A stretch of 64,000 nucleotides of DNA from Bacteroidota bacterium (GCA_025361565.1 JANYKN010000089.1:1-64000); one strand, 5' to 3'. Positions 11,122 through 18,023 are shown, numbered from the stretch's first letter. Made by a program: numbers and translations. Notes: generated by a model from the sequence alone, not told the origin.

Positions 11122-11454
11122 TTAATAGTGCAGATCCTCAATTTCTTTACTAACTATCTGACAAGTATTTAAGAAATTAGTAATAAGTGAACTAAATTCA
11201 TTACTATCTTTATTTTCTAGGGCTAAAAGTTCAATTTGTTTAAGTTCTTCAGCCTGTTTTTTTACACCCATTATTTCAAACGAGTTCTTGGCTTTATGTG
11301 CAGCTTCTCTCAGCGCTTTCCAGTCTTTTGCAGCAAAAGAATTAACAATTTCTCTATTAAATTCAGGAAGTTGTTTGACAAAAAGGCTTATCAATTCTTT
11401 AATTACATTTTGGTCGTTGCCAGTGGTTGTTTTTAAGTAGCTTAAATCAATCAT
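11122..11454 (-). CDS. Stand-alone HPt (histidine phosphotransfer) protein
   Basis: This 110-residue all-helical protein carries the HPt phosphoacceptor His53 in AAHKAKNS, the form of the usual H-x-L-K-G/N-S motif. It would receive a phosphoryl group from a receiver domain and pass it to another. Its start overlaps the last bases of the hybrid kinase gene by 8 bp, so the two are translationally coupled and the kinase receiver is the obvious donor. No response regulator with an output domain is next to it, so the final target is elsewhere in the genome. Confidence 0.85.
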   Translation of the reverse strand: MIDLSYLKTTTGNDQNVIKELISLFVKQLPEFNREIVNSFAAKDWKALREAAHKAKNSFEIMGVKKQAEELKQIELLALENKDSNEFSSLITNFLNTCQIVSKEIEDLHY

Positions 11455-13327
11455 CTTTTTTTCTTGGGAAGTTCAAAAGCAAAGATATAATTTTTGTTAA
11501 TAATTCTTCTTTTTTAAATGGTTTTATTAGATAATCATTCATTCCTGAATCGAAACATTTTTTTATTTCATTTAATGTTGCCGCAGCAGTTAAAGCGATT
11601 ATTGGCGTATTACTTTTTTCTTTGTCGCCAAAAGATCTGATTATTCTGCTTAATTCATAACCATCCATTTTTGGCATATGCAAGTCGAGTAAAATCAGAT
11701 GATAATTACCAACTTTGAGTTTTTGAAGCGCATCATCACCACTATTGCAGGTTTCGGTAATAAAATGATTTTTGTCAAGCATGGATTTTGCAAATAGTAG
11801 GTTCATGGGATTATCATCAACCAATAATATTTTGCTGTTTTCCAATGAAATTAATTGATCTTTATATTTATCCGAATCTGTAGTCTGTCTTTTTTGATAA
11901 GGAATGGTGAAAATGAAACTGCTTCCTTCACCTTTTTTGCTTTTCACTTTAATTTTACCATCCTGTATTTCAACAAGTTGTTTTGTAATTGCTAATCCCA
12001 GGCCGGTTCCACCATATTTGCGGTTTGTATCACTGCTTTCCTGGGTAAAGCTTTCGAAAATTAGTTCTTGTTTTTCTTCTATAATCCCTATACCAGTATC
12101 AATTACTGCAAATTCCACTACAATAGTATCATTGTCATCCGTTAGGTTTTTAACTTCAATTCGTATACTTCCAGTGGGTGTAAATTTAATTGCATTACCA
12201 ACCAGATTAATCAGAATTTGAGTCAATCTGTATTCATCTCCAATAACAAAATGGGGAATTGATTCTTCAATTGAGGTAATAAAATCCAGTTTTCTGTTTT
12301 TTAATTCAAATTCCATCGAACGCTCTATCCGCTCAATTGTTTTATGTATTGAAAATTGTGATTTTTCCAGCTGTAGTTTACCTGTTCCTAACTTGGAGAA
12401 TTCAAGTAAATCGTTAATAATTGCCAATAAATGATCTGAAGAATGCTTAATATTTTCAAGATATTCTTTTTGTTCATGGTTCAGTTCTGTTTCTTCGAGT
12501 AAGCTAGATAATCCAACAATGGATGTTAAAGGTGTCCGAAGTTCATGGGTCATGTTGGCCAAAAATTTTTCTTTGGTTTTAAGTGCAGTGTCGCTTTGGT
12601 TTTTAGCTGTTTTTAACTCATTGTTTTGTTGTTCAATTTGCTCAATCATAAAATTGAATCCACTTGCTAGTTTTCCTACTTCATCTCGTGATTTTATTTC
12701 CGACCTGATTGAATAATCTTTTTTGAATGAAATACGGTTCATTACATGGTATAATTTAAATATTGGTCTTGTAATTCCTCCTTGAAAAAGCAAGGCCAGA
12801 AAAGTTCCTGTAACTATTGATAAACCTACAATATAAAGCATTACTGAAATATATTGTTTTTCCTTTTTCTTGTATTCCGACAAACTATAAGCAATTCTTA
12901 AAGTGGCAATTATTTCACCTTCTAGGTATATTGGTTTACTGCTGATCAATATGTTATGGTCAAAAATTGTAGTGTCTGATTTGAGTGGGATATTATATTT
13001 TGGAGTATGGAGGCTTTCTGAATTTTTAAATTCTGCAAAAAGGCTGGAATCTGGCAACAATATAATCGCTCCCTGTACATCTTCATCCGTTTTTAGTGAT
13101 GAAAGATAATCTAAACTCTCTTTTTTATTATTAAATGTAATGGCTCCTGTGTTACTATCGCCAATAACATTACTTAATATGCTGAGTTTTTGTTTTATTT
13201 CTAAGTTATATAGCAGCCTTTCGTAATAATATTGCACGAGTGATGCTAGAATAATATTGATTGTACTAACAATCACAATCAGTAAAATGATTTTTGTTCG
13301 GATGGATAAATTTTTGAATATAGCCAT
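11447..13327 (-). CDS. Hybrid histidine kinase with CHASE8-like periplasmic sensor
   Basis: I chose the ATG at 13327 (MAIFKNLSIRTK) over a TTG four codons upstream; it lies 4 bases after the stop of the preceding gene. Domains in order (626-residue numbering): membrane helix ~10-32; a periplasmic region ~33-155 whose N-terminal part (LSNVIGDSNTGAITFNNKKE) resembles CHASE8; helix ~160-182; HAMP ~183-235; HisKA with His261 in MTHELRTP; ATPase with Asn378 and the GGTGLGLA box; and a receiver domain with phosphoacceptor Asp548. CHASE8 is the sensor domain of YfiN/TpbB, which is inhibited by YfiR, and two YfiR-like genes lie directly upstream. The likely route is YfiR control of the sensor, then phosphate from kinase to receiver to the HPt protein. 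Confidence 0.9.
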   Translation of the reverse strand: MAIFKNLSIRTKIILLIVIVSTINIILASLVQYYYERLLYNLEIKQKLSILSNVIGDSNTGAITFNNKKESLDYLSSLKTDEDVQGAIILLPDSSLFAEFKNSESLHTPKYNIPLKSDTTIFDHNILISSKPIYLEGEIIATLRIAYSLSEYKKKEKQYISVMLYIVGLSIVTGTFLALLFQGGITRPIFKLYHVMNRISFKKDYSIRSEIKSRDEVGKLASGFNFMIEQIEQQNNELKTAKNQSDTALKTKEKFLANMTHELRTPLTSIVGLSSLLEETELNHEQKEYLENIKHSSDHLLAIINDLLEFSKLGTGKLQLEKSQFSIHKTIERIERSMEFELKNRKLDFITSIEESIPHFVIGDEYRLTQILINLVGNAIKFTPTGSIRIEVKNLTDDNDTIVVEFAVIDTGIGIIEEKQELIFESFTQESSDTNRKYGGTGLGLAITKQLVEIQDGKIKVKSKKGEGSSFIFTIPYQKRQTTDSDKYKDQLISLENSKILLVDDNPMNLLFAKSMLDKNHFITETCNSGDDALQKLKVGNYHLILLDLHMPKMDGYELSRIIRSFGDKEKSNTPIIALTAAATLNEIKKCFDSGMNDYLIKPFKKEELLTKIISLLLNFPRKKDD

Positions 13328-13331
13328 TTGG

Positions 13332-13814
13332 TCATTCAATTATTGTTGCTAATTCTAAAAATTCAGGACTTACATTTAACCTGGCATAATTTAGTGCTTT
13401 CAGGTTTATCTGGTATCCATAATTGGGGTTGTTACCTACCAAATTTATCATTCCTCCTTTTTCGCAAAAACTGTTTATATTATCAGCAACTAATAATATT
13501 TGCCTGTCCCGAAGAGCCGATATAAGCAATTTTGCCACAGAAAGTTCTATTTCTGTGGCAAAAAGTAAATGACAATGGTGAATAGTTTCAATTGATGAGT
13601 ATAATTCAGTTTTCCATTCGCGGTTTTGGATTTGCTTGTCTCTTAAAGTGTTTATTAAGGCTTTATTAATTGTATTACTTCCAAATATTCCAATAATAAA
13701 AGGTGAAACACTAAAATTAAATGCATTCTGCGGCCAATAAATAGACTTAGTTAGGTTATATAAATAACCCGATTTAACATATTCAGGCTTATCCGTATCT
13801 TCTTTCGAAACCAT
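13332..13814 (-). CDS. YfiR-like (DUF4154) protein lacking a signal peptide
   Basis: About 160 residues. It shows the YfiR/DUF4154 pattern: an EYVKSGYLYNLTKSIYWP start, central FATEIELS and a GGMINL strand near the end. It begins exactly at the domain start, with no export signal, although YfiR proteins act in the periplasm. The ATG at 13814 forms a TGATG stop/start junction with the upstream YfiR gene; a TTG at 13817 is the only other choice, and an in-frame TGA lies just before it. It may be the second half of a once-tandem YfiR-YfiR protein, or may act in the cytoplasm. A perfect 14-bp hairpin lies inside the gene at 13530-13563. Confidence 0.8.
   Translation of the reverse strand: MVSKEDTDKPEYVKSGYLYNLTKSIYWPQNAFNFSVSPFIIGIFGSNTINKALINTLRDKQIQNREWKTELYSSIETIHHCHLLFATEIELSVAKLLISALRDRQILLVADNINSFCEKGGMINLVGNNPNYGYQINLKALNYARLNVSPEFLELATIIE
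13530..13563 (-). other. Perfect 14-bp hairpin inside a coding region
   Basis: TTTTGCCACAGAAA at 13530-13543 is the exact reverse complement of 13550-13563, with a 6-base loop. It lies within the second YfiR-like gene, where on the minus strand it codes for FATEIELSVAK. In RNA this is a very stable stem, strong enough to act as an attenuator, a processing site or a brake on the kinase gene downstream. Confidence 0.6.
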
Positions 13815-14347
13815 CAATCATAAATTTTAGCTAAAGCTAATACTTTTGAACTAATTTCTAAACTTTTATTTTGAATTATTCGGTAATTTATTTCAAACTG
13901 AATTTGATTTCCCTGTTCAAATAAGTTAATCATGCCACCATTTTCGCAAAAATTGGCCATATTATCTGATATGGTAAGTATATCTATTGTATTTGAAAGC
14001 TTAATTACTTTTTTTGCATTTTCTTTCTGGTTATTGGTAACAAAAATTACAGAACCACTTTCTATTTCATTCAGGTTTTTACAGTATTGTATCTGCCAGT
14101 TTTTAAAATTTGCATTGTTCGGTGATTTTAATTCACAATTCATTTCAATATTATTATCACAGATTACATATAGCAACCTTTTTGAATCTGAAAAAGTTCG
14201 GTTTTGTGACCAATCCATAAACTTTGTCAATTGGATAATAGCTTCGATTTTGGCCTTGTTTATAGATTTTTGTGCATATATTTGGTCTGGTTTAAAGTAA
14301 CTGATGGTACAAATTAAAATGGCTAAAAATAATTTATAACTTTTCAT
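13814..14347 (-). CDS. YfiR-like (DUF4154) periplasmic protein
   Basis: The 177-residue protein has a signal peptide (residues ~1-25, ending IYAQ) and then a YfiR/DUF4154 domain with FMDWSQ near the start, a VIFVTNNQ core and a GGMINLFEQ strand near residue 145. In the best known case YfiR is a periplasmic inhibitor of the diguanylate cyclase YfiN, binding its periplasmic sensor. It is the first gene of a four-gene run (YfiR, YfiR, hybrid kinase, HPt) with junctions of a few bases, so it probably modulates that kinase. YfiR usually has cysteines that form redox-sensitive disulfides; here Cys residues lie mid-domain and near the end. Family call is good, partner is inferred. Confidence 0.8.
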   Translation of the reverse strand: MKSYKLFLAILICTISYFKPDQIYAQKSINKAKIEAIIQLTKFMDWSQNRTFSDSKRLLYVICDNNIEMNCELKSPNNANFKNWQIQYCKNLNEIESGSVIFVTNNQKENAKKVIKLSNTIDILTISDNMANFCENGGMINLFEQGNQIQFEINYRIIQNKSLEISSKVLALAKIYD

Positions 14348-14818
14348 GGTATTTGGTAAATTGGTTAAGTTTGATTGTTTATGTAAAAGTAAAGTATTAT
14401 GTACAATAAAACAAATAAAATAGAAAAAAATATTATAAAAATGATAAAATGTAAATATAACAGAACATAGTTTATAATATTTTTAATCAATTATGCAACC
14501 ACCAGAATTAATTATGTGTCTTTTAATTGATTATAAAAGTTGCTGTTGATATATCTTATTTATGTTTGAATTCTTTATGATATCTTTATAAATTTGTGAT
14601 AAATGAATAACTAATATCACAAGAATTCTAAGAAATCCAGCTTATGTAGATTATTGACAGCTAATTATATATTCTTTTTTATTTATATTTTTGCATATCT
14701 GAGTCATTAATCAACTATTGTATTTTTGATACTTATTTACCAAGTAAATAGAATCTTAATCTAAAAGTCCTTCAATGGAATTTTCTATGCTATCATTACA
14801 AAACAAAAAAATATACAT
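14348..14818. other. Divergent intergenic region, very AT-rich
   Basis: This 471-bp stretch separates the leftward YfiR operon from the rightward TPR gene and must hold promoters for both. Two matches to the -7 element TAnnTTTG on the plus strand (14686-14693 and 14721-14728) lack a convincing -33 element. No gene or strong repeat is seen. Confidence 0.5.
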
Positions 14819-15874
14819 ATGAAAAAAATTTCTGTGCTGCTATTGCTTAGTCTAATTGTGAATCTTGAATTAATTGCTCAGACTGATAGTATGGCTACTC
14901 TTGTTGTTGCTGATAATCAGGAAGCTGAATTGGACTATAACAAAGGTGTTGAGAATTATAAAATAAAAAGTTTTGATAAAAGCTTAGAAAATTTTACTTC
15001 AGCAACATTGAAAAAATCAAATTTTTATCAAGCGTTCTATAACAGAGGTAATGTTCAATCTCAGCTTAAAAGATATAAAGAAGCCATTAGCGATTATACA
15101 GAGGTAATAAAAATACAACCCAGTTATGCAAGAGCTTATTTTAGTAGGGGTATGGCTTATTTTCTAATGAAGGATTATAAAAGTGCTATGGATAATTTTT
15201 TCACAGCCTCTACTCTTGACCCCAAAGTTGCCAAATATCCGTATTACTGCGGTGTAGCCAATTTTCAAATTGGAGATTATAAACTGGCTGAGAAAAACTT
15301 TACAGAAGCCATCCGAATTAAAAATGATTATGCTTTTGCATATAATGACAGGGGCAGTGCCCGAAGAAATCTCCAAAATTATGATGGCGCAATTGCTGAT
15401 TATAATCTCGCTATTAAAAATGATCCGGCTATGGCTATAGCATTCAATAATTTAGGAAGCGTGCAACGGATTACAAAAGATTACAAAAAAGCCATTATAA
15501 GCTATAGTTCTGCAATCAGGCTAAATCCTACTTACTTTATAGCATACAACAATAGAGGAAGTGCATATTTTGAAATGGGAAATTTGATTGAATCTATTTC
15601 GGATTTTGAAAAGGCAATTAGCCTAAATGCCAAATATGCACCAGCTTACAATAATATTGGCCTTCTGTTATTAAAACAAAAAAAGTATCAAGAAGCATCA
15701 ACCCAATTTACAAAAGCTATCGAGTTAGATACCAATTTTGCTGAAGCATATGGAAATAGAGGAAGTTCAAAGGAAATGCTTCACGATTTTGATGGTGCAT
15801 GCAGCGATTGGAAGAAAGCTGCAAGCCTGGGAATTGAAAATGCCGATTTATATCTTAAAGGATGCGAAAAATAA
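14819..15874 (+). CDS. Exported TPR-repeat protein
   Basis: A signal peptide (residues ~1-20, ending LIAQ) is followed by about nine tetratricopeptide repeats covering most of the 351 residues, each with the AYNNRGSA or AFNNLGSV pattern. TPR arrays are protein-protein docking surfaces. The protein is probably periplasmic. It lies 73 bases before the PorE-like gene, which itself starts with TPRs, so the two may form one transcription unit and one complex. There is no enzymatic domain, and the binding partner cannot be read from the sequence. Confidence 0.85.
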   Translation: MKKISVLLLLSLIVNLELIAQTDSMATLVVADNQEAELDYNKGVENYKIKSFDKSLENFTSATLKKSNFYQAFYNRGNVQSQLKRYKEAISDYTEVIKIQPSYARAYFSRGMAYFLMKDYKSAMDNFFTASTLDPKVAKYPYYCGVANFQIGDYKLAEKNFTEAIRIKNDYAFAYNDRGSARRNLQNYDGAIADYNLAIKNDPAMAIAFNNLGSVQRITKDYKKAIISYSSAIRLNPTYFIAYNNRGSAYFEMGNLIESISDFEKAISLNAKYAPAYNNIGLLLLKQKKYQEASTQFTKAIELDTNFAEAYGNRGSSKEMLHDFDGACSDWKKAASLGIENADLYLKGCEK

Positions 15875-15947
15875 ATTAAAAGCAACAAATCTTATTGAAT
15901 TTTTCATTTCGATGATAAAGAAATTATTAAAATAAAAAACTGCCATA

Positions 15948-18023
15948 ATGAGAATTTTAAATAAACTTATTTTTTTGACATTTAGTATGTTTGCGTTTTT
16001 TTCAACAACTTTTTGTCAGGAGCGGATTTACATTGATAAAAAAGAATTTAAACAAACAGAAGCTGGTTTTAATGAAGCTTGGAAAAATGTCACCAAAGGT
16101 GATTTTTTATTTTATCAACACCGCGAAGGAAGCTATCGTAAAGCTACCGAACATTATACCCGTGCCTTGGAATATAATTCAGAAAATGCAGAGTTGAATC
16201 TTTTAACCGGGATTTGTTTTCTCCGTTCTTGGCCAAAAGAAAAAGCTGCAAAATATATTGAAAAGGCTTGTGACTTAAAAATAAATGTTCATCCAAAAGC
16301 ACAATTTTTATTGGGTAGGGCTTACCAATGTGCTTCGGAGTTTAATAAAGCAATTATTGCCTATAATACTTACAAAGAAGGTTTATCAGAAAAGGAAAAT
16401 AAAGAATATGGCAATTTAATTTCAAATTACATCGAAGAGTGCGAAAACGGTCTTGTTTTAAAGAAAATACCAGTAAGGGCTTTAATTGATGATGTTGATA
16501 CAGCTATTAATTCGCCTTTTGATGATTATAACCCGGTACTCTCATCCGATGGAAATACAATGCTATTTACTTCGCGCAGAGGTGTGGACGGAGATTTGAT
16601 TAGTCCGGTTGATCACAAATATTTCGAAGATATATATTCAAGTGAAAGAGACTCTAAAGTTTGGAGCAAAGCAGTTAATATTGGAAACCCTGTAAATACC
16701 AAATGGAACGATGCAGCAGTTGCGCTTTCAGGCGATGGGAAAAAACTAATCATTTACAGAGGGCATACCGAAGGTGGTGATTTGTTTGCTGCAACTCTAG
16801 AAGGAAAAAAATGGGGTTATATTCATGATTTGACAAATAAAGTGAATAAAGATGATTCACAAGAGTCGTCGGTTTGCTTTAATGCAGATGGAACAAAAAT
16901 GTATTTTATAAGCAACAAAGCCAAGGATAGTTACGGAGGGCGCGATATTTATTTAAGTCATCTTGATAAAAAAGGCAAACGTTGGTCAAAAGCCATCAAT
17001 TTGGGTCCTGTTATTAATTCAGAATTCGATGAAATTTCTGTCTATGTTAGTCCGGATGAATCAACAATCTATTTTAGTTCAAACAGGCCTAAATCAATTG
17101 GTGGATTCGATATTTTCAAATCTGTATATAAAGATTCTGTTTGGAGTGAGCCTGTTAATATGGGAATTCCAATTAATTCACCTGTTGATGATATTTATTT
17201 GAAAATAATGCCGAATGGCAGGGATGCCTATTATTGTTCAGAACGCGATGGTGGTGTAGGAGATTTGGATATCTATCATATTACCCTGCTTGGACCCGAA
17301 AAACCTTTGGCTTTGAGCAATGAAGACGATTTAGTTGCCGGTATTGCTTTCCCTGATTCAGATCCGATAATTGATGATGCACTTGAAATAAAGTACACAA
17401 GAATGACTATTGTAAAAGGCACTGTGAGCGATTTTAATACCAACAAACCATTGCAGGCAAATGTTGAATTGGTAGATAATGCATCAGGAAAAATTGTTAA
17501 AGAGACAAAATCAGATCAAAATACAGGCCTATACTCGATTACATTGCCTTCTGGATCAAATTACGGTTTTTCTGTAAATGCGGATGGATATATGTTCCAT
17601 TCCGAAAATTTTAACGTACCTGCTGAAAGTGGATATAAGGAAATTTTTAAAGATATTGCATTACAACCAATGACTGCGGGTTCAAAAATTATTCTGTATA
17701 ATACATTTTTCGAAACCGGGAAATCAAATTTACGGGTCGAATCTTATTCGGAATTAAACCGTGTGGCATTGATGTTTACCAAATATCCCAGACTGGTGCT
17801 CGAAATTTCCGGACACACTGATAACCGAGGATCGGTTGCTGCAAATAAAAAATTGTCAAAAGCTCGTGCCGATGCAGTAAGAAATTACCTGTTGGGGCAA
17901 GGAGTTAGCCCTACTAGTTTACAATCTGTTGGTTATGATTTTAAATTTCCTGTTGCAGATAATAAAACACCCGAAGGACGCCAACAAAACAGAAGGGTAG
18001 AGGCTAAAATAATAAGTAATTAA
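15948..18023 (+). CDS. PorE-like TPR / beta-propeller / OmpA protein
   Basis: The 691-residue protein has a signal peptide (cleavage near TTFCQE; whether Cys23 is lipidated is unclear), TPR-like helices at ~35-150, and WD40-like PD40 propeller repeats at ~180-435 (LSSDGNTMLFTSR, SPDESTIYFSSNR). Then comes a carboxypeptidase regulatory-like domain at ~485-575 (VKGTVSDFNTNKP), and an OmpA-like peptidoglycan-binding domain at ~580-691 (NTFFETGKSNLR, ending NRRVEAKI). This order is that of PorE, which anchors the type IX secretion system to peptidoglycan, and of several paralogs in Bacteroidota. No other T9SS gene is near, so it may be a paralog. Confidence 0.85.
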   Translation: MRILNKLIFLTFSMFAFFSTTFCQERIYIDKKEFKQTEAGFNEAWKNVTKGDFLFYQHREGSYRKATEHYTRALEYNSENAELNLLTGICFLRSWPKEKAAKYIEKACDLKINVHPKAQFLLGRAYQCASEFNKAIIAYNTYKEGLSEKENKEYGNLISNYIEECENGLVLKKIPVRALIDDVDTAINSPFDDYNPVLSSDGNTMLFTSRRGVDGDLISPVDHKYFEDIYSSERDSKVWSKAVNIGNPVNTKWNDAAVALSGDGKKLIIYRGHTEGGDLFAATLEGKKWGYIHDLTNKVNKDDSQESSVCFNADGTKMYFISNKAKDSYGGRDIYLSHLDKKGKRWSKAINLGPVINSEFDEISVYVSPDESTIYFSSNRPKSIGGFDIFKSVYKDSVWSEPVNMGIPINSPVDDIYLKIMPNGRDAYYCSERDGGVGDLDIYHITLLGPEKPLALSNEDDLVAGIAFPDSDPIIDDALEIKYTRMTIVKGTVSDFNTNKPLQANVELVDNASGKIVKETKSDQNTGLYSITLPSGSNYGFSVNADGYMFHSENFNVPAESGYKEIFKDIALQPMTAGSKIILYNTFFETGKSNLRVESYSELNRVALMFTKYPRLVLEISGHTDNRGSVAANKKLSKARADAVRNYLLGQGVSPTSLQSVGYDFKFPVADNKTPEGRQQNRRVEAKIISN

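Follow-up and report, generated by a model that had tools for sequence, protein, structure and literature searches.

The locus and its gene calls

The window analysed here, a stretch of 64,000 nucleotides of DNA from a Bacteroidota bacterium, carries on its minus strand an operon for two YfiR (DUF4154) proteins, a hybrid sensor kinase with a CHASE8 sensor domain and an HPt phosphotransfer protein, and on its plus strand two genes that run away from this operon. The features are as follows.

13814..14347, minus strand: YfiR-A, 177 aa, DUF4154, with the N-terminal signal peptide MKSYKLFLAILICTISYF...IYAQ; predicted periplasmic
13332..13814, minus strand: YfiR-B, 160 aa, DUF4154, without a signal peptide
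11447..13327, minus strand: hybrid sensor kinase, 626 aa, ATG start, TM-CHASE8-TM-HAMP-HisKA-HATPase_c-REC
12893..13201, minus strand: CHASE8 sensor domain of the kinase, residues 43-145
12380..12574, minus strand: HisKA domain of the kinase, with the phospho-acceptor His in HELRTP
11489..11830, minus strand: REC domain at the kinase C-terminus, from Pfam and motif
11122..11454, minus strand: HPt phosphotransfer protein, His53 in HKAKNSF
14348..14818, no strand assigned: intergenic region between the YfiR operon and the TPR-OmpA genes, judged from the gene layout to be the probable promoter region for both
14819..15874, plus strand: TPR-repeat protein, divergent neighbour, synteny conserved
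15948..18023, plus strand: TPR-PD40-OmpA outer-membrane-type protein, candidate YfiB-like partner

The original prediction had described four genes joined by gaps or overlaps of a few bases, and its coordinates proved right; all four genes lie on the minus strand. The ATG of YfiR-B at 13814 has one base in common with the YfiR-A stop, the kinase starts 4 bases after YfiR-B (an alternative in-frame TTG lies at 13339), and the kinase and HPt open reading frames overlap by 8 bases. A consensus promoter scan of the intergenic region 14348..14818 gave nothing better than shuffled sequence, and a perfect hairpin within YfiR-B is not kept in relatives.

In Pfam searches the two YfiR proteins score 79.8 and 101.5 bits for DUF4154 (PF13689; cut-off 24.9), and the CHASE8 domain that had been predicted for the kinase is borne out (PF17152; 35.2 bits, cut-off 27). 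The kinase also matches HAMP, HisKA, HATPase_c and Response_reg above their curated cut-offs, and the HPt protein scores 29.4 bits against 24.6. In the predicted structural model, the CHASE8 region takes an extracytoplasmic PAS/Cache fold flanked by helices 9-64 and 150-202. The kinase motifs HELRTP (261), DTGIGI (410), GTGLGL (440) and LLDLHMP (546) are intact, and the phosphorelay residues are all present, from the phospho-acceptor His and the N and G boxes to the REC Asp and His53 of the HPt protein. Given that catalytic and phospho-acceptor motifs are intact, a phosphorelay output fits. In L070, L075 and others of the mapped relatives the HPt domain is fused to the kinase, which links the two functions. 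No response regulator adjoins the four-gene set at this locus.

YfiR and CHASE8 kinases in the genome and its relatives

YfiR is a brake on c-di-GMP synthase, and a diguanylate cyclase as the hidden output of the locus was among the candidates considered. It was rejected: searches of the genome (6.76 Mb in 199 contigs, 98% complete) returned no GGDEF domain and no EAL domain, control genomes gave matches for both, and the module therefore cannot control a diguanylate cyclase here. GGDEF fragments are found in only one of seven genus members, G491, an assembly of 880 contigs, and none of the mapped CHASE8 proteins has a GGDEF motif. The genome nonetheless encodes eight DUF4154 domains. It has two CHASE8 domains, and both belong to kinases whose genes come immediately after a YfiR gene. 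The second such set (L012) comprises a YfiR, a CHASE8-HAMP-PAS-kinase, a single-domain response regulator and a REC-PAS-kinase-REC protein; at two other loci (L011 and L013) the DUF4154 protein stands alone. That eight YfiR domains occur in a genome where neither GGDEF nor EAL is detectable suggests that YfiR is a general envelope-sensing part, attachable to different outputs.

Linkage between YfiR and CHASE8 proteins extends well beyond this genome. Of the two outcomes that would have refuted the original prediction, no CHASE8 similarity in a profile search and YfiR genes unlinked to the kinase in relatives, neither occurred. A DUF4154 gene lies directly upstream on the same strand for 17 of the 31 CHASE8 matches above the cut-off in 296 genomes of the phylum, and for at least 40 of 54 CHASE8 matches among 198 genomes from the order. 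The gene order of the window likewise recurs: the exact four-gene set is present in genomes of the same genus, relatives that include two MAGs recorded as Bacteroidales bacteria, and a YfiR-kinase-HPt core with one YfiR is found across the order. The four-gene order is more than chance. Some CHASE8 proteins do lack an adjoining YfiR, as would be expected if the YfiR genes and the kinase were mere neighbours and the CHASE8 kinase sensed a ligand of its own, but an adjacency that spans many families in two genome samples, between genes that overlap or nearly do so, makes such a reading very improbable.

The mapped regions, which took in the second system of the same genome, fall into two main types. 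In one, YfiR is followed by a CHASE8-kinase-REC protein and an HPt that is separate or fused; in the other, a TonB-dependent receptor and YfiR precede a CHASE8-kinase, a response regulator and a REC-kinase-REC protein. A tree of the sensor region gathers all HPt-type kinases, that of the window included, into one clade with support 0.95. Of the mapped CHASE8 proteins that lack a kinase match, two are MCP receptors. Clusters of the TonB type with a CHASE8-PAS kinase, found in the same order and phylum, share with the window locus a YfiR directly upstream of the CHASE8 kinase; they differ in carrying the TonB-dependent receptor in place of the OmpA protein, and a single-domain response regulator with REC-kinase-REC in place of the HPt.

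One correction to the original prediction is that the wiring of YfiR and CHASE8 to kinases was already published in 2012. Malone et al. (2012; PMC3375315) describe the YfiR-YfiN core as modular, its output in distant species being either GGDEF paired with EAL, or HPt, or a sensor kinase; they name Thauera sp. MZ1T as having a hybrid kinase together with two YfiRs, and report that almost all divergent YfiNR-type operons are without a yfiB homologue. At its core, then, the finding is already known. The divergent systems of that paper resemble ours in placing YfiR beside a CHASE8-type sensor, in their hybrid kinase output and, in Thauera, in the presence of two YfiRs; in contrast, OmpA-domain genes accompany the HPt-type operons studied here, and signal-peptide loss, present in our YfiR-B, has no mention in the available text of PMC3375315. 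What is added here is the OmpA association of HPt-type loci, a genome without c-di-GMP enzymes, and a YfiR-B free of a signal peptide, none of which we found in the open-licence literature. Nor did that literature yield a paper on the system under YfiR in Bacteroidetes or DUF4154 with a kinase.

The two YfiR proteins

Five of the seven genus genomes carry the tandem YfiR pair, and its two members differ in their export signals, which were judged by hydropathy and inspection rather than by a dedicated predictor. YfiR-A has the hydrophobic N-terminus of a signal peptide, and a hydrophobic N-terminus is present in nearly all other YfiR proteins of the mapped loci. In YfiR-B the signal peptide, whose lack the original prediction overlooked, is absent in 5/5 genus members (the window, L056, L058, L159 and L160), and at most one YfiR of the pair is therefore predicted to be periplasmic. 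The claim that YfiR controls a phosphorelay thus stands in part: the phosphorelay output fits the intact motifs, whereas joint action of both YfiRs in the periplasm finds no support, as YfiR-B lacks an export signal in every genus member compared.

YfiR-B is conserved among genus members at 43-57% identity, with differences of 0.38, 0.25 and 0.56 by codon position. Its AlphaFold2 model has a pLDDT of 94.9, and the best structure matches of that model in the PDB are all YfiR. At the sequence level, a profile of 30 relatives matches a PDB YfiR at 7e-11, the single YfiR-B sequence found nothing among PDB sequences, and a collection scan with YfiR-B gave matches only in two genomes of the genus and in a single distant relative. 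In the YfiR tree, most HPt-type operons contribute their single YfiR to a group that also holds YfiR-B (support 0.84); YfiR-A falls outside this group, though the deeper branch is weak (0.28). Judging from this grouping and from the missing signal peptide, YfiR-B would thus be the counterpart of the usual single YfiR, its export signal lost in the genus, and YfiR-A, added or diverged, would be the copy that keeps one.

The same counterpart relationship can be read in another way, since the single YfiR of related operons is exported. YfiR-B might then leave the cytoplasm by an unrecognised route, or as a YfiR-A/YfiR-B fusion, and the two would form a pair that acts on CHASE8 in the periplasm. 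YfiR-B does keep FCxxGGMIN and FEIN-like motifs, and P. aeruginosa YfiR is a dimer (PMC4655355). Upstream of the YfiR-B domain, however, there is no hydrophobic segment and no open frame, and the spacing between the A and B reading frames varies in every species (-1, -8, +5, -4 and +8 bases across five species), and we consider an exported YfiR-B unlikely. Spacing that is different in every species argues against a conserved frameshift fusion in particular, a candidate that was rejected: all five species differ in spacing and frame, and immediately upstream of the YfiR-B start the frame is closed both in the window and in L056.

A conserved YfiR-B that has lost its export signal, which is the reading we prefer, is itself a puzzle. 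The ancestral YfiR may have moved to the cytoplasm while the exported YfiR-A serves the periplasm, such that one kinase is governed from both sides of the inner membrane. We offer this as a rather doubtful proposal; a cytoplasmic YfiR, if true, would be a new use of the family.

Alignment with the P. aeruginosa proteins suggests that the contact residues are kept only in part. GAITF in the kinase CHASE8 aligns to AAVVF, the YfiR-contact motif of YfiN, and at this place HPt-type relatives show variants like AALIF and ANIIF; the Phe162 position of YfiR is Phe in the window's YfiR-A and Tyr in its YfiR-B. The disulfide pair Cys145-Cys152 of P. aeruginosa YfiR is not kept in the window YfiRs by this alignment, in which the place of Cys145 is a Cys and that of Cys152 is not.

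The OmpA-domain neighbour and the proposed pathway

Where the sequence reaches at least 3 kb upstream, 14/15 HPt-type loci have an OmpA-domain gene no more than 5 kb upstream, compared with 1/35 of other CHASE8 loci (Fisher p ~2e-10, a value that overstates the evidence, because the window protein and four of the counted loci went into the OmpA search profile, the count without those four being 10/11, and because the loci are related and non-independent). With 26 OmpA domains in the 6.76 Mb of the genome, only a few per cent of loci should have such a neighbour by chance. TonB plug genes follow the opposite pattern (0/15 HPt-type against 18/35 other CHASE8 loci). The HPt-type loci that lie outside the count of 15 include L160, which has the OmpA gene, and L128, L121 and L122, in which no OmpA neighbour was detected; in L121 and L122 there is also no YfiR beside the kinase.

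The window OmpA protein, with an OmpA domain scoring 71 bits, matches YfiB structures among other OmpA proteins in the PDB (1.9e-10), and its GHTDNRG motif has Asp and Gly at the spacing of YfiB Asp102 and Gly105. Only this domain aligns to YfiB; the YfiR-binding segment (Phe48, Trp55, Phe57) is not alignable, no standard lipobox was seen at the N-terminus, and the protein, at 691 aa and with several domains, is not a small outer-membrane lipoprotein of the YfiB kind. Its domain order is, we take it, that of the PorE-type TPR-PD40-OmpA proteins of Bacteroidota. PorE is a type IX secretion component, and the window protein differs from it in being linked to YfiR genes. Because P. aeruginosa YfiB, itself of the OmpA/Pal type, binds YfiR (PMC4655355, PMC4887326), a YfiB-like role may reasonably be inferred for this neighbour.

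We think it probable that the locus encodes a YfiR/CHASE8 envelope-sensing module in which a multistep phosphorelay has replaced the diguanylate cyclase as output. In such a pathway, periplasmic YfiR-A would bind the kinase CHASE8 domain and hold the kinase in one signalling state. A change in the envelope would be reported probably via the neighbouring peptidoglycan-binding OmpA protein, or via the redox or ligand state of YfiR, and the altered contact between YfiR-A and CHASE8 would change autophosphorylation of the kinase. Phosphate would then pass from His261 to the REC Asp, to His53 of the HPt protein and on to an unlinked response regulator, with YfiR-B predicted to stay in the cytoplasm in a separate role. 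That YfiR-A physically binds CHASE8, that it inhibits the kinase and that the OmpA protein plays its part are inferred from YfiBNR; the final response regulator of the relay is likewise putative.

A serious rival, which we hold to be possible if less than probable, is that YfiR acts mainly by turning the kinase on or off as a ligand-binding input subunit, much as periplasmic binding proteins do, and not as a repressor that an outer-membrane protein sequesters. In structure, YfiR is similar to periplasmic amino-acid-binding proteins, and its crystals have contained bound Trp or vitamin B6 (PMC4887326, PMC4655355). Within the same genome, moreover, DUF4154 is covalently fused before a hybrid kinase (L014) and before the phosphatase part of two PAS-SpoIIE proteins, one of which is adjoined by a SiaC-family protein (L015); sequestration is impossible in these fusions, and a dissociable, sequestered YfiR therefore cannot be the sole mode of action. 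The strong OmpA-gene association of HPt-type loci, on the other hand, fits a YfiB-like partner.

The envelope-sensing phosphorelay that we favour has close likenesses in P. aeruginosa YfiBNR and Yersinia HmsCDE, in which a YfiR/DUF4154 protein, a membrane protein with CHASE8 and HAMP, and an OmpA-domain protein are also encoded near one another. The window system differs from YfiBNR in its HisKA-REC-HPt output in place of GGDEF, in its large TPR-PD40-OmpA protein (YfiB is a 168-aa lipoprotein), in having two YfiRs, one without a signal peptide, and in a genome without GGDEF or EAL. HPt-type operons with their OmpA gene look like YfiB-YfiR-YfiN with the output alone swapped, a resemblance that makes c-di-GMP-independent YfiR-CHASE8 signalling directly testable.

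The OmpA genes themselves occur in two arrangements, either co-oriented and directly before YfiR, with products of about 800-950 aa, or divergent behind a TPR gene, with products of about 690 aa (the window, L127, L160, L082 and L103). Orthology between the window OmpA and the co-oriented operon genes was rejected, the best match of the latter in the genome being on contig C35; the window's OmpA is common only to L127, L160, L082 and L103. We also note that the divergent TPR and OmpA-domain genes (14819-18023), which the original prediction missed, are part of the conserved neighbourhood, with homologues of the TPR gene at the same place in L127, L160, L159, L082 and L103.

Variation around the YfiR-kinase-HPt operon

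Two neighbouring OmpA-domain genes lie on contig C35 of the window's genome (G000:C35:10500-16700; loci L183 and L181); no other genes there match the OmpA proteins embedded in the related YfiR operons as well. We also note that the YfiR-B coding sequence holds a perfect 14-bp inverted repeat (window 13530-13563), which is absent from all four of the genus relatives checked. At two loci, L121 (5037-7348) and L122 (2019-4330), a CHASE8 kinase of the HPt type is found together with its HPt gene, with no YfiR gene adjoining the kinase. The kinase of one genus member (L058:93-1933) is divided between two frames; either the gene is broken or, the genome being fragmented, the split may stem from an error in sequencing.

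YfiR domains fused to other signalling modules

Elsewhere in the window's genome, DUF4154, the YfiR domain, is fused to a PAS-PAS-SpoIIE phosphatase in two proteins (L015:2252-5089 and L016:4471-7170). A SiaC-family gene (L015:5531-5914) adjoins the former, and the latter has small neighbours of similar appearance; these two loci suggest a switch of the SiaABC kind in which a YfiR domain serves as the sensor. In a further protein of this genome (L014:4116-6707), whose gene adjoins one for a TonB-dependent receptor, DUF4154 is directly joined to a hybrid kinase, in the order DUF4154, coiled region, HisKA, HATPase and REC.

Chemoreceptor-like proteins

Beside a single YfiR gene, three loci (L011:673-3294, L117:2456-4712 and L161:1-1999) encode a receptor-like membrane protein that by inspection resembles methyl-accepting chemotaxis proteins. 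Among distant members of the phylum sample, CHASE8 itself is borne by MCP chemoreceptors (L108:3012-4925 and L109:1784-3691).
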